In this document: piece by piece, positions 26,851 through 33,063 of the stretch
Layout of the letters: each line of letters begins with the position of its first letter
Numbering within the stretch: position 1 is the first letter of the stretch
From: Elusimicrobiota bacterium
GTDB lineage: Bacteria > Elusimicrobiota > Elusimicrobia > UBA1565 > UBA9628
DNA length: 48,333 nucleotides
Assembly: GCA_027327915.1 (NCBI GenBank)
Contig: DAHVWT010000010.1
Span: forward strand, 1-48,333
Direction: 5' to 3'
Position numbers and translations under genes: made by a program
Notes under the pieces: generated by a model
Database searches by the model: none
The model's input: the letters and a program-made list of their open reading frames with translations, nothing else
Told to the model about the DNA's origin: nothing

Positions 26851-27396
26851 TTATTTTTTCATCTCGGATTTCAAAAGCCCCCAGCATTCCTGGTCCACCC
26901 ACCTGCCGTTGAGCTTTTTCTCCCGGCGCAGGCATCCTTCGTAGCTGAAGCCGAGCTTCTGGAGGATGCGGCGGGCGGCGCGGTTGGAGGGCTCGATGCG
27001 CGCGTAGACCCGCTGCAAACCCTCTTTGAGAAAAGCGGTCTTGAGCAGCCGGCGTCCCGCCTCGACCGCCAGCCCCATCCCCATCCGCTCCTGCCTGATC
27101 CACAAGGACATCTTGGCGCGTCCGTCCGCGACCGACATCCGAGTCAGCGCCGCCACGCCGGCAAGCCGCTGCGTCTTTTTCTCGAAGACGCCTTGGACCA
27201 GGGCCGCGCGATCATGGCCCTGGGCGAAGCTCGCGCGGATAAACTCCCGGCAGTCGTCCGGCGCGCGGACGGCTTGGACCCATGTCATGCGCCGTTTGAG
27301 CCGCGGGCGCGAGGCGGCGATCGCCTCGAACAACGCCGCGGCGTCCGACTCTTCGAGCGTACGCAGCACGATGCGTCCTCCGTCATCTTCTATCAT
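26851..27396 (-). CDS. GNAT N-acetyltransferase, RimJ/RimL type
   Basis: 181 residues: [19 protein letters not shown] at the start, a central beta-bulge region ([22 protein letters not shown]), the acetyl-CoA loop around [18 protein letters not shown], and [20 protein letters not shown] at the end. These are the marks of the RimJ/RimL branch that acetylates ribosomal-protein N termini or small molecules; the substrate here is unknown. The ATG overlaps the glycosyltransferase stop (ATGA). Confidence 0.88.
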
Positions 27397-28745
27397 GCCG
27401 GCACGACGCCGTCACGGCCCGAAACCAAAGCGGCCGCCGAATCCAAAAGGGCCTGGGCCGACTTGTCAAAAGGCATGGCGGCGGCCTTCTCGCGGGCCGC
27501 GCGTCCCATCGCGGCCAGGGCCTCCGGATCGGAGAGCATCTCCTTAATCGCGACGGCGAGCGCTTGGGGCGCCTCGCGCGCGCCTTCATAGGCGACGCGG
27601 CGGCCGATCGCCGCGTCGAACCAATCAAGGGCGCCGTAATGCGCCGCCGTGAGGACCGGGAGCCCGGCGCTCATCGCCTCCAAGTTCGTCAACCCGTAGC
27701 TCTCGTGAGTGGAGGTGGAGATAAAAAGCCGCGCCAGCCGGAAATGAGCCTGTTTCTGAAGCCCTCCCAGGTGGCCCGGGAAATGGACGCGCACGCGCTT
27801 GAGCTTCGCGGCCTCGCGGCGGATCGTGCGCCAATAGGGCAGCCCCTGCATGAACGCGGGCTCCCCGCAGAGCAGAAGACAGATGTCCTCGGGACCGGAG
27901 CGCTCGACGAGCCTCAAGGCCCTCAGGAGAAGGTGCAGCCCCTTCTCCGGGGAGATCCGGCTCAAGGTCATCAGGACGGTGGCCGCGGAGGACAGGCGAT
28001 AGCGCCGCCGCAGATCCTCGACCGCGCGGTCGAGCTCCCGCTCGTCGTAGCGGTCGTTCCAAACGCCCCACGGATGGATCGTGATCTTGCGGCTTAAGGT
28101 CCGATCCTTGTCCATGAAGCCGTAGGCCGCAAGGATTCGTTCCCCCATGGCGCGGGAAGGAAGGACGAGGCGCGCGCAGGAGGAGACGGCGTCGCGCTCC
28201 TTCTCGAACACGAGCTTCAAGACGTCCGGAACGCCCCTCGAAAGACCGAGCTTGCGCAGCCCTTCATAGAGGAGGGAAAGCCTCGATCCGGCGATCAGGT
28301 CGCCGAGATAAAAGCGGGCGAAGTAGTCAAGGACGTCCACATGCCACAAGGACACCACGGCGTAGCCGGCCTCCGCCAATTGCCGAAACGCGGGGCCCTC
28401 CGAAATGTCGTTGGCGATCACGACGGTCTCCGCCGGGGGGAAAAGCTCGCTCCGCGAGAGAACCCAGCGCGTGGACTCCTTCTCGAAGCGCCGCGCGAAC
28501 TTGCCGTATTCGAGCTCGTTGAGGCTGGTGAGCCCCCGGGAGGGCCCGCCAAAACCGTCCAAAGCCTCGTAGGAAATTCCCGGGGCCGGAGACTGCGGAC
28601 CCGACCCCAAAACATGGAGCTTGACGTCTTCTCGGCGGCCCCACACCGTGACAAGCCGCGTGCCCACCGCCGCCCCGCCGCCCAGCGGGGTCGTGTCGAG
28701 GGGGTAGCCCAGATGGCTTGCGATGAAAACAACTTTGGGAGTCAT
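27393..28745 (-). CDS. glycosyltransferase, GT4 family (GT-B fold)
   Basis: 450 residues. The N-terminal domain has a Gly-rich loop near residue 23 (GGGAAVGT), and the C-terminal GT4 domain has SRISPEKGL and the EX7E-type motif in HESYGLTNLEAMSAGLPVL. It is a retaining nucleotide-sugar-dependent transferase, probably for surface polysaccharide or glycolipid, cytoplasmic or membrane-associated. It is first in a run with the GNAT, thiolase and receiver genes. A TATAAT lies 21 nt upstream, so it has a short leader; no Shine-Dalgarno is visible. Confidence 0.87.
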   Translation of the reverse strand: MTPKVVFIASHLGYPLDTTPLGGGAAVGTRLVTVWGRREDVKLHVLGSGPQSPAPGISYEALDGFGGPSRGLTSLNELEYGKFARRFEKESTRWVLSRSELFPPAETVVIANDISEGPAFRQLAEAGYAVVSLWHVDVLDYFARFYLGDLIAGSRLSLLYEGLRKLGLSRGVPDVLKLVFEKERDAVSSCARLVLPSRAMGERILAAYGFMDKDRTLSRKITIHPWGVWNDRYDERELDRAVEDLRRRYRLSSAATVLMTLSRISPEKGLHLLLRALRLVERSGPEDICLLLCGEPAFMQGLPYWRTIRREAAKLKRVRVHFPGHLGGLQKQAHFRLARLFISTSTHESYGLTNLEAMSAGLPVLTAAHYGALDWFDAAIGRRVAYEGAREAPQALAVAIKEMLSDPEALAAMGRAAREKAAAMPFDKSAQALLDSAAALVSGRDGVVPA

Positions 28746-30218: not shown

Positions 30219-31367
30219 CTAGAAAAGCCTTCCCTTTCCCTGTCCCCAGAGTTCGGCTAAAAACTCCTCGATTGGAATGATTTCATTGCCGGCATCGCTC
30301 TTGCGCCGATGCTCCTCCAGGCAAACGATCAGGCGCCGCTTGAGGCGCAAATCCTCGGCTAGGGCGGATAGGGAGCGCTCCTCGCGCGGGGAAACGGTCC
30401 TTTTGGCCTTGACTTCGATGGCGATGTCGTCGCCCAAAAGGAAATCCACCTCGAATTGCGACAAGCTGCGCCAGTAGGAGAGGGGTTTGTCGGACCCGTG
30501 ATACTCGAGGGCCGCCTTAAGCTCCGTGAACACCAGGTGCTCCAAGGCTTTGCCGAAAAGATCCCCATGCCGCTCGATCTCGAAACGGCCCAAGAGCTCG
30601 TTGACCACGCCGAGATCGAAAAAATAGAACTTGGGGGTGGCGACGGCTTTGCGCGTGCGGGTTTTCCGGTAGGACGGAAGCTCATAGCCGACCAGGGTGT
30701 CGTAGAGGATCTGGAAATAGCCTTTGACAGTGTTGAGCGGCAGGCCGGTATCATTGGCGATGTTCGTATAGTTGATTTGTTCGGCGTTGCTCAGGGCGGC
30801 CACGGTGAGGAAGCGGTTGAAATGGCCGACATGGCGCGTGAGGCCCTCGGCGCGGATTTCCTCCTCGAGATAGAGACCGACGTAGTTCTTCAGCTCTTCC
30901 CGGTAATACGGCGAATCGATGATTCCCGGGAGCGATCCCCGGCGCACGCGGTCATCAATGCGGGCCTCCCCCAATTCGGCCGTGACGAGAGGAAAAAGAT
31001 GCCGGCGCCAGAGGCGCCCCGGCAGGAGATTGATTCCGGAGCGGCGCAGCTTGCGCGCGCTCGATCCGGTCATCAGAATTCTCAGGGCCTTGTTCCGATC
31101 GAGCAGGACCTGCGCCTCGTCGAAGAGCTCGGGGAGTTTTTGCGCTTCGTCGATGACGACGATCCGGGTTCGCGGGGAGAGCCGCTGCCTGAGGAGTTCG
31201 GGATGGGCGCTCAACTCCCGGTAGGTATTGGTTTCCGATAGATCAAAATACCGGGCCTCCGGACCCAGGCTTTTCGCCAAGGTGCTCTTGCCGGTTTGCC
31301 GCGGCCCGAGCAGCAGGAGGGATTTCTTTCGCAACAATCCTCTTAAATCGAGGATTCTCCGATACAT
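30219..31367 (-). CDS. AAA-type ATPase of the DUF4143 family
   Basis: 382 residues. The N-terminal P-loop domain has LLLGPRQTGKSTLAK (Walker A) and RIVVIDEAQKLPELF (Walker B with Asp-Glu-Ala-Gln). The C-terminal DUF4143 part has VDFLLGDDIAIEVKAK, a PD-(D/E)XK nuclease-like Asp...Glu-Val-Lys motif. Such proteins are common, often in variable regions, and are of unknown function. The ATG at 31367 lies seven bases after CATAAT. The promoter is covered by a perfect 24-bp palindrome, so a dimeric regulator, possibly acting in an autoregulatory loop, is expected. Confidence 0.85.
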   Translation of the reverse strand: MYRRILDLRGLLRKKSLLLLGPRQTGKSTLAKSLGPEARYFDLSETNTYRELSAHPELLRQRLSPRTRIVVIDEAQKLPELFDEAQVLLDRNKALRILMTGSSARKLRRSGINLLPGRLWRRHLFPLVTAELGEARIDDRVRRGSLPGIIDSPYYREELKNYVGLYLEEEIRAEGLTRHVGHFNRFLTVAALSNAEQINYTNIANDTGLPLNTVKGYFQILYDTLVGYELPSYRKTRTRKAVATPKFYFFDLGVVNELLGRFEIERHGDLFGKALEHLVFTELKAALEYHGSDKPLSYWRSLSQFEVDFLLGDDIAIEVKAKRTVSPREERSLSALAEDLRLKRRLIVCLEEHRRKSDAGNEIIPIEEFLAELWGQGKGRLF

Positions 31368-31374
31368 TACAAGT

Positions 31375-31403
31375 ATTATGCATTATTTCATGAAATAATG
31401 CAA
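31375..31403 (-). promoter_or_regulatory. promoter of the DUF4143 ATPase gene with a 24-bp palindromic operator
   Basis: TTGCAT (31403-31398), a 17-nt spacer and CATAAT (31380-31375) form a good sigma70-type promoter. A perfect 24-bp palindrome (31379-31402; half-site TGCATTATTTCA) runs from the -35 to the -10 and would be occluded by a bound dimer. Confidence 0.7.
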
Positions 31404-31411
31404 TTGTGTTA

Positions 31412-31417
31412 CATATT
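31412..31417. repeat. target site duplication, left copy
   Basis: CATATT directly before the left end of the IS, repeated at 33058-33063 directly after its right end. Confidence 0.75.
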
Positions 31418-31458
31418 CCCAAATCCTCAAGCAAGGCCCGGGGCTGAAGAAATAAAAT

Positions 31459-31519
31459 ACCTCGCGTCCCGACGGTAGGGAAGAATCGGTGAAAAGGCGA
31501 AACTTTTCACCCGCGAGGT
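31459..31519 (+). promoter_or_regulatory. hairpin that would hide the transposase ribosome-binding site in read-through transcripts
   Basis: The outer stem is ACCTCGCG (31459-31466) with CGCGAGGT (31512-31519). The inner stem is GGTGAAAAG (31488-31496) with CTTTTCACC (31503-31511). The Shine-Dalgarno GAGGTG (31515-31520) lies in the outer stem. A possible internal -10 (TAAAAT, 31453-31458) would start transcription near 31465, leaving most of the outer left arm out of the native mRNA. Confidence 0.6.
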
Positions 31520-31525
31520 GAAAGT

Positions 31526-32827
31526 ATGATACTTCAGAACGGGCACCGTTGGAAAGTCGAAAAATCCAAGGAAGTGGTGACGACGTCGTTTGCCGGGCTG
31601 CCGCTTTTGACGGAGCTGGCGCACCATACGGGGCTTGTGGAGGCGCTCGACAGCCTGCCGGGACTGTGGAAGCGCCGCGGGATCTACAAGAGCTCGGACT
31701 ACATCCTGGGCCTGGCGATGACATTGATCGCTGGGGGCGAGGGGTTGGACGACACGCGCGTGCTCAAGGGAGACGGAGGTCTGGGCCGCCTGGCGTTTTC
31801 GGGCCTTCCGGCGGCCAACAGCTTCGGGGAGTTCCTGCGGCGCTTCACGCGGCGCGGCGTGGCTCGACTGGGCGATATCGTGAGCCGCCAGGCCCTACGT
31901 TGTCTCAAGCCGGGGCAGACCGTCACGTTGGACATCGATTCGACGGTCATCGAGTCGGACAAGAAGGAGGCGAAGCGAACGTATAAGGGGGTGGACGGCT
32001 ACAACCCGTTGTTGGCCTGGCTCGACGAACTGGACGTCTTCGTGGGCGGGGTGTTTCGAGAAGGGAACGCCTCGCCGCAGTCGCACATCCTGTCTCTTTT
32101 GCGCTGGTGCCGCAGACGCTTGGGGAGCGCGAAGCTCCGGTTCCGCTCGGACAGCGCGGGGTATCAGTTGAAGGTCATGGAACATTGCCACCAGCACGGC
32201 ATCGAGTTCGCGATCCGGGCGGATCTTGACGCTTCGGTGCGGGCGACGATCGAGGCCATCCCGCGGAAGGACTGGCAGCTGGTGGTGCGGGAGCACGACA
32301 CGTTCCTGCTGGCGGAGACGGTCCACGCTCCGGGACAGGTGGGCAACCGTTCGCAAGCCCCCCTGCCGGCCTTTCGCTTGGTGGTGGTACGCCGCACGGG
32401 GCAGTTGGACCTGTTCCGGGACCCCATCGAATACTACCCGATCATCGCGAACTTGCCCGAATCATTGAGCGCGCAAGAGGTCCTGGACTTCTACAACGGC
32501 CGTGGGCGCATGGAGAAGGCGATCGGGGAAGCCAAGAACGGCTTCGCGCTGCACTGGCTGCCGTGCGGGGAGCTCTTGGCCAACGCGGCGTACTTCCAGA
32601 CCGCGCTCCTGGCCTACAACCTGGCGCGGATGTTGAAGCTGGCGGCCCTGCCGGAGAGCTGGCAAGGGCTCTCGATCAAGAGCCTTCGCTTCCGGCTGCT
32701 CTGCCATGCGGGCGTCATCATCCGCCACGCGAGGCGATTGATCTTGCGGCTCTCGGAGGGTTTCGCCTTCTTCTCGGAGTTCGAAAACGCTCGTTGGGCC
32801 GTGTTGTCGCCGTCCTGGGCGACGTAG
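31526..32827 (+). CDS. IS1380 family transposase
   Basis: 433 residues, intact. The DDE catalytic residues are visible in LDIDSTV (D136 or D138), FRSDSAGY (D209) and the GRGRMEKAIGEAKNGF segment (Glu), the IS1380/IS4-group arrangement with the basic N-R-x-E-x-I-x-x-x-K pattern. It cuts and rejoins the element ends. The ATG follows GAGGTG by about five bases, and that site can be sequestered by the upstream hairpin. Codon use is similar to the neighbours, so the element is adapted to GC-rich hosts. Confidence 0.92.
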   Translation: MILQNGHRWKVEKSKEVVTTSFAGLPLLTELAHHTGLVEALDSLPGLWKRRGIYKSSDYILGLAMTLIAGGEGLDDTRVLKGDGGLGRLAFSGLPAANSFGEFLRRFTRRGVARLGDIVSRQALRCLKPGQTVTLDIDSTVIESDKKEAKRTYKGVDGYNPLLAWLDELDVFVGGVFREGNASPQSHILSLLRWCRRRLGSAKLRFRSDSAGYQLKVMEHCHQHGIEFAIRADLDASVRATIEAIPRKDWQLVVREHDTFLLAETVHAPGQVGNRSQAPLPAFRLVVVRRTGQLDLFRDPIEYYPIIANLPESLSAQEVLDFYNGRGRMEKAIGEAKNGFALHWLPCGELLANAAYFQTALLAYNLARMLKLAALPESWQGLSIKSLRFRLLCHAGVIIRHARRLILRLSEGFAFFSEFENARWAVLSPSWAT

Positions 32828-32910
32828 GGAAGTTTCAGCGGCCCTTAAAATTCGCCAGCCAACCCGCCCTGTGGATAACTTTGTCCGGATGATGACGTTC
32901 GCCCCAAGAA

Positions 32911-33027
32911 GCGTTCTCGATGCCGTTGGCCGGGGCGTGCCGGAGGCCGACTGACGCATGCAGGAGGCCGAGGCCCGAGCGGCGGCTTCTGGCCGACCGC
33001 GTCCCCGGCCAACGGCGTCGAGAACGC
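32911..33027. repeat. long inverted repeat (25-bp stem) in the IS tail
   Basis: The arms at 32911-32935 and 33003-33027 are complementary over 25 bp with only one position off, which would be a G-U pair in RNA. They enclose a 67-nt loop between the transposase stop and the right terminal repeat. No T-tract follows. Confidence 0.75.
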
Positions 33028-33057
33028 GGCCTTTCAGGGCTTAACTGAGGATTTGGG

Positions 33058-33063
33058 CATATT
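33058..33063. repeat. target site duplication, right copy
   Basis: CATATT immediately after the right terminal repeat, identical to 31412-31417. Confidence 0.75.

Follow-up and report, generated by a model that had tools for sequence, protein, structure and literature searches.

The gene for an AAA_14-DUF4143 ATPase in an Elusimicrobiota bacterium (GCA_027327915.1, contig DAHVWT010000010.1) is preceded by a 24-bp perfect palindrome, which is most likely a docking site through which this abundant but uncharacterized ATPase and putative nuclease switches off its own gene. Relatives in many bacterial phyla carry different palindromes, which track the predicted DNA-reading helix of their own protein. 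The window, i.e. the whole stretch of DNA that was analyzed, is 48,333 bp long with 65% GC, and belongs to a genome of 1.99 Mb in 164 contigs. Loci are numbered below with the prefix L and genomes with the prefix G. The features of the window are summarized in Table 1.

Table 1. Location of the features in the 48,333-bp window.
Position	Strand	Feature	Details
31379..31402		24-bp perfect palindrome TGCATTATTTCATGAAATAATGCA	12+12 arms; proposed self-operator
31398..31403	-	-35-like hexamer	TTGCAT
31375..31380	-	-10-like hexamer	CATAAT; 17-bp spacer; 7 nt before the ATG at 31367 (leaderless layout)
30219..31367	-	AAA_14-DUF4143 ATPase gene	382 aa; PADLOC PDC-S01
30963..31367	-	Nucleotide-binding domain (NBD)	residues about 1-135
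30672..30833	-	Winged helix-turn-helix (wHTH)	residues about 179-232 (H180-192, H200-207, H211-223, wing)
30765..30767	-	Residue 201	start of helix 2 of the HTH; one of the two columns most predictive of operator similarity
30723..30740	-	Residues 210-215	cap and first turns of the recognition helix; 210 is the other top column
30408..30482	-	PD-(D/E)XK-type motif region	residues 296-320; E306, D308, E318 and K320 invariant in 74 sequences
31418..33057	+	Insertion sequence	DDE_Tnp_1_4 transposase (31526-32827); imperfect ends CCCAAATCCTCA; CATATT on both sides (31412-31417 and 33058-33063)
28017..28034		18-bp GC-rich perfect palindrome CTCGACCGCGCGGTCGAG	inside a glycosyltransferase-like gene (27393-28745; name from reading the translation); second longest in the window

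The palindrome and its promoter

A sequence-only reading had described a perfect palindrome exactly covering the promoter of the ATPase gene, and this observation was confirmed, including both hexamers. The palindrome is the longest perfect one in the window. The longest arm in each of 40 dinucleotide-preserving shuffles was 7-11 bp, never 12. The local z-score is 8.1, and 0 of 30 shuffles reached its score. The two hexamers match the sigma-70 consensus at only 8 of 12 positions, and a simple promoter scan did not call them. The insertion sequence begins 15 nt beyond the palindrome, upstream of the promoter, leaves the palindrome intact and is not part of the operator. In the window the neighbors of the ATPase gene are a thiolase-like gene, the insertion sequence, and xerC-like and recA-like genes (names from reading the translations), and no second regulator gene is adjacent.

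The genome was searched for further copies, as the sequence-only reading had proposed. The full palindrome occurs once in the genome at up to 3 mismatches, and the half-site at up to 1 mismatch occurs only as its two arms plus one single site elsewhere, so no large regulon is visible. The same-genus genome G001 aligns at 90-93% on both sides of the locus, but there the thiolase-side and xerC-side ends lie about 15 nt apart, without ATPase gene, palindrome or insertion sequence. The operator therefore came or went with the gene. Apart from the insertion sequence, the segment absent from G001 holds the ATPase gene and its promoter alone, without the two co-encoded partner genes of a toxin-antitoxin module.

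Distribution of the palindromes across the family

The genome has 15 DUF4143 matches, two of them apparently pieces of one gene. Most of those with readable upstream DNA have an AT-rich palindrome or near-palindrome in the same place but with a different sequence, for instance a 41-bp palindrome ending at the start codon in L003. The genes L004 and L008 lie close together on one contig of this genome, each with its own different palindrome. Related genomes (G017, G048, G015, G044) hold up to 34 DUF4143 matches per genome, while 5 of 57 searched genomes have none. Loci were collected from the own genome, relatives and other phyla, and the best inverted repeat upstream of each P-loop was scored against 30 dinucleotide shuffles. 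Of 200 HMM hits, 172 had a P-loop match, enough upstream DNA and a non-duplicate region, and 68 of these 172 genes reached z>3. In a second sample, fetched afterwards from the list of DUF4143 matches in the searched genomes, 22 of 58 genes reached this threshold, as did 5 of 10 plasmid-borne genes, giving a total of 95 of 240. The remaining 145 genes do not pass. Some of these carry weaker or shorter versions of the palindrome of a clade (for example L160, L161 and L166), while others show nothing clear. The scoring window was fixed after inspection of the window's own genome, whose genes are part of the 172.

Two sets of controls were used. Among other genes in the first loci, 29 of 284 intergenic upstream regions reached z>3, or 34 of 417 when non-intergenic regions were counted too; these controls were windowed on the first ATG, whereas family genes were windowed on the P-loop. 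Among RecA and AAA_21 genes, windowed on the P-loop and scored identically to the family, 1 of 45 reached z>3 (Fisher p 6e-8). The sister family ATPase_2 (PF01637; L291-L297, L354, L356) also carries promoter palindromes such as ATTATCCTTGACAAGGATAAT, in 4 of 7 genes and in 2 of 5 further scored loci out of 9 fetched, 6 of 12 in all, which is a small sample.

Among the 95 positives, the center of the palindrome lies 10-45 nt before a start in 80. A usable start was present in 238 of the 240 genes. A sigma-70-like promoter whose -10 ends 2-12 nt before the start scores at least 9 in 37% of these 238 genes and in 6% of the 284 controls. Of 65 positives with such a promoter at a score of 8 or more, the -10 ends exactly 6 nt before the start in 34, and the palindrome overlaps the promoter in 60. 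Leaderless transcription is an inference from this spacing. In L116, L136, L146 and similar loci a second TGGAAT...ATTCCA palindrome overlaps the start codon, so the operator may be partly coding.

The sequence of the palindrome differs between paralogues but is shared by relatives in different genomes and phyla. Ordered by the protein tree, neighbors share palindromes: an ATCATGAT-centered type in relatives of the window protein from several phyla; CTTGAAAATTACCA with its inverse in L004, L044, L055, L273 and, slightly changed, L258; CTTGAATTATAGAA or close to it in L003, L263 and L269; and ACAAATTAGTAGG in L009, L059 and L063. A loose C(A/T)TGnAWW-plus-inverse motif occurs in 28 of 240 family genes and in 0 of 284 controls. 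A 55%-identical relative, L068, lies on a contig labeled as a Klebsiella pneumoniae MAG, a label which may be a binning error. Promoter similarity rises with protein identity (Mantel r 0.121, p 0.001, pairs under 60% identity, 159 genes), while similarity of far-upstream DNA does not (r -0.014, p 0.84). The exact sequence of the palindrome is absent from the 78%-identical homologue L149, which has a different upstream palindrome. Absence from the promoters of orthologues had been named beforehand as grounds for rejecting an operator, but this condition needs rewording, because across the family the palindromic organization recurs while the sequence changes. A comparison of whether paralogues in the same genome have more divergent operators than expected was underpowered.

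Predicted protein architecture and co-variation with the proposed operator

The window protein matches DUF4143 with 103.6 bits (curated cut-off 28.1) and AAA_14 with 77.8 bits (cut-off 27). Of the 8 PADLOC families listed for it, 7 are PDC-S01 models (best E 1.4e-56). NCBIfam gave no match for three family proteins. A sequence search of the PDB with the family profile hit AAA+ ATPases over the N-terminal part only, among the best 60 of 194 hits. The AF2 model (pLDDT 95.2) shows an NBD, a helical part, a winged helix and a C-terminal domain, which by its D-x(n)-E-x-K motif is PD-(D/E)XK-like; the structural comparison covered mainly residues 1-289.

In total 233 genes were aligned, and 223 of these entered a matrix regression. 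Operator similarity is predicted by wHTH identity (p 0.002), but equally by nuclease-domain identity (p 0.002), and not by the NBD (p 0.15) or the helical part (p 0.99). With far-upstream DNA the wHTH has no effect (p 0.66), though the nuclease domain does (p 0.01). In a column-by-column test corrected for overall identity, residues 201 and 210 rank first and second of 374, although columns outside the HTH (15, 357, 40, 345) also rank high. An HTH-contact pattern, drawn from the secondary structure but after the column ranking had been seen, ranks 2, 3, 6 and 27 of 356 sliding positions under four parameter settings, the weakest rank being obtained with the loosest threshold. In a split of the data it ranks 4 among 92 genes of the genome-contig and plasmid set, with 210 as the top column, and 5 among the other 131 genes, with 211, 210 and 212 as the top three columns. 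With far-upstream DNA it ranks 50-158. Because the sequences are related, the permutation p-values are optimistic. The window protein and L149 differ at both residues 201 and 210, and their palindromes differ too, but this is a single anecdotal case. These results are read as the recognition helix of the protein matching its own operator.

Interpretation and comparison with known systems

That the palindrome is an operator is very likely, and that the ATPase itself reads it and represses its own gene is likely. In this view the palindrome is the operator of a self-contained, self-repressed single-gene cassette, in which the ATPase would presumably bind as a dimer through its own winged-helix domain, one protomer per half-site, covering the -35/-10 region and blocking its own transcription. 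The computation itself establishes the palindrome, its place over a leaderless-type promoter, its recurrence across the family with clade-specific sequences, the co-variation of operator and recognition helix, and the absence of gene plus palindrome from a congener. In contrast, physical binding, dimerization, repression rather than activation (from position) and release of the operator when the STAND-like ATPase changes state are inferred in the absence of binding or expression data, and a winged helix in STAND proteins need not bind DNA. The interpretation in the sequence-only reading was thus partly supported. The operator over the core promoter is supported, and of its two alternatives, self-regulation is favored over a distant repressor because the operator travels with the gene and co-varies with the recognition helix of the gene product, while the conditional or toxic role that it suggested is, like repression, at most an inference.

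The best surviving alternative, though unlikely, is a distant host repressor. No second regulator gene is adjacent, and many bacterial palindromes serve trans-acting repressors. However, paralogues in the genome have different palindromes, the operator type follows the ATPase across genomes and phyla, and the genome holds only the two arms plus one further half-site at one mismatch, so that a separate host repressor would be needed for each paralogue in each host. A mobility or nuclease target site (element end, integration site or homing site) is also unlikely. The gene is a lone cassette missing from a congener and carries a PD-(D/E)XK motif, but of 59 genes with z of at least 4, 5 have another half-site copy in the locus and none has one at the other end of the gene, the empty site in G001 has no palindrome, and the position is tied to the promoter. 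Slightly less likely still is that the wHTH binds the palindrome to activate, or to switch between activation and repression. The same evidence for binding applies, and some operators lie upstream of the promoter (e.g. L009, L059, L063), but in 60 of 65 testable genes the palindrome overlaps the -35/-10 segment, the usual place of repressors. A structural or RNA hairpin (terminator, attenuator) or a chance palindrome is very unlikely despite the perfect self-complementarity, as with a -10 seven nt before the ATG the palindrome would lie upstream of the transcript, sequence and not just complementarity is kept within clades, and no terminator-like site was found there.

A more far-reaching reading, possible but doubtful, is that the AAA_14-DUF4143 (PDC-S01) ATPases, and probably the ATPase_2 family, are one-protein switches combining a STAND-type ATPase, a sequence-reading winged helix and a PD-(D/E)XK effector. 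At rest the protein would hold its own promoter through a paralogue-specific palindrome, and a trigger would flip the ATPase, free the promoter and arm the nuclease. The recognition code (residues 201 and 210-215 against the half-site) would diversify so that dozens of copies coexist in one genome without cross-talk. A Thermus AAA_14/DUF4143 gene, TT_P0211, is listed as 6.6-fold up with plasmid DNA only when Argonaute is present (PMC4406477), which is compatible with a conditional promoter but is no test of it. This gene is taken to be TT_RS11170 of Thermus thermophilus HB27 (L218, 19854-21074). By eye its promoter has TGAATGactatCATTCA ending 3 nt before the ATG, while the top-scoring palindrome upstream (z 3.3) is a different one further from the start.

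PDC-S01, a phage-defense candidate whose anti-phage activity is inferred, is reported as the fourth most common defense-type system across prokaryotes, with experimental validation pending for most such candidates (PMC12988326). A shared self-operator would provide a DNA ligand for each protein, a predicted specificity code, an expectation that expression is normally low, and reporters with which to look for the trigger. It would also mean that the winged helix of a STAND-like protein reads DNA. The phenomenon looks general for a very abundant gene family. Literature searches on DUF4143, COG1373, AAA_14 (PF13173), PDC-S01 and other PADLOC candidates, guilt-by-embedding, and PF13635/DUF234, which did not extend to preprints or most subscription papers, found no report of an operator for this family; the papers listed for PF13635/DUF234 were unrelated, as were most of those for AAA_14.

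The window protein shares with PDC-S01 an ATPase fused to a PD-(D/E)XK member (PMC12988326), and the proposed self-operator is the new element here. Over residues 1-260 the best structural matches are the archaeal STAND-type ATPases 2qen (PABY2304; Z 15.6, rmsd 3.1, 238 aligned) and 2fna (SSO1545; Z 14.3, rmsd 3.6, 242 aligned). Both belong to ATPase_2, a different Pfam family, in which few loci were scored for palindromes. The NLR/STAND switches RPP1, CED-4 and Avs5 share the NBD-helical-winged-helix core (Z about 11-14), but use the winged helix for autoinhibition, whereas here it appears to read DNA. STAND NTPases further have C-terminal sensor repeats and a nucleotide-driven oligomer switch; the C-terminus of the window protein is PD-(D/E)XK-like by motif, and switching is inferred. 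Autorepressed toxin-antitoxin operons and restriction-modification controller proteins are, like the system proposed here, mobile cassettes with a self-recognized palindromic operator limiting expression. In the present case one protein carries the proposed reader, the ATPase and the putative nuclease, with no partner gene in the cassette.
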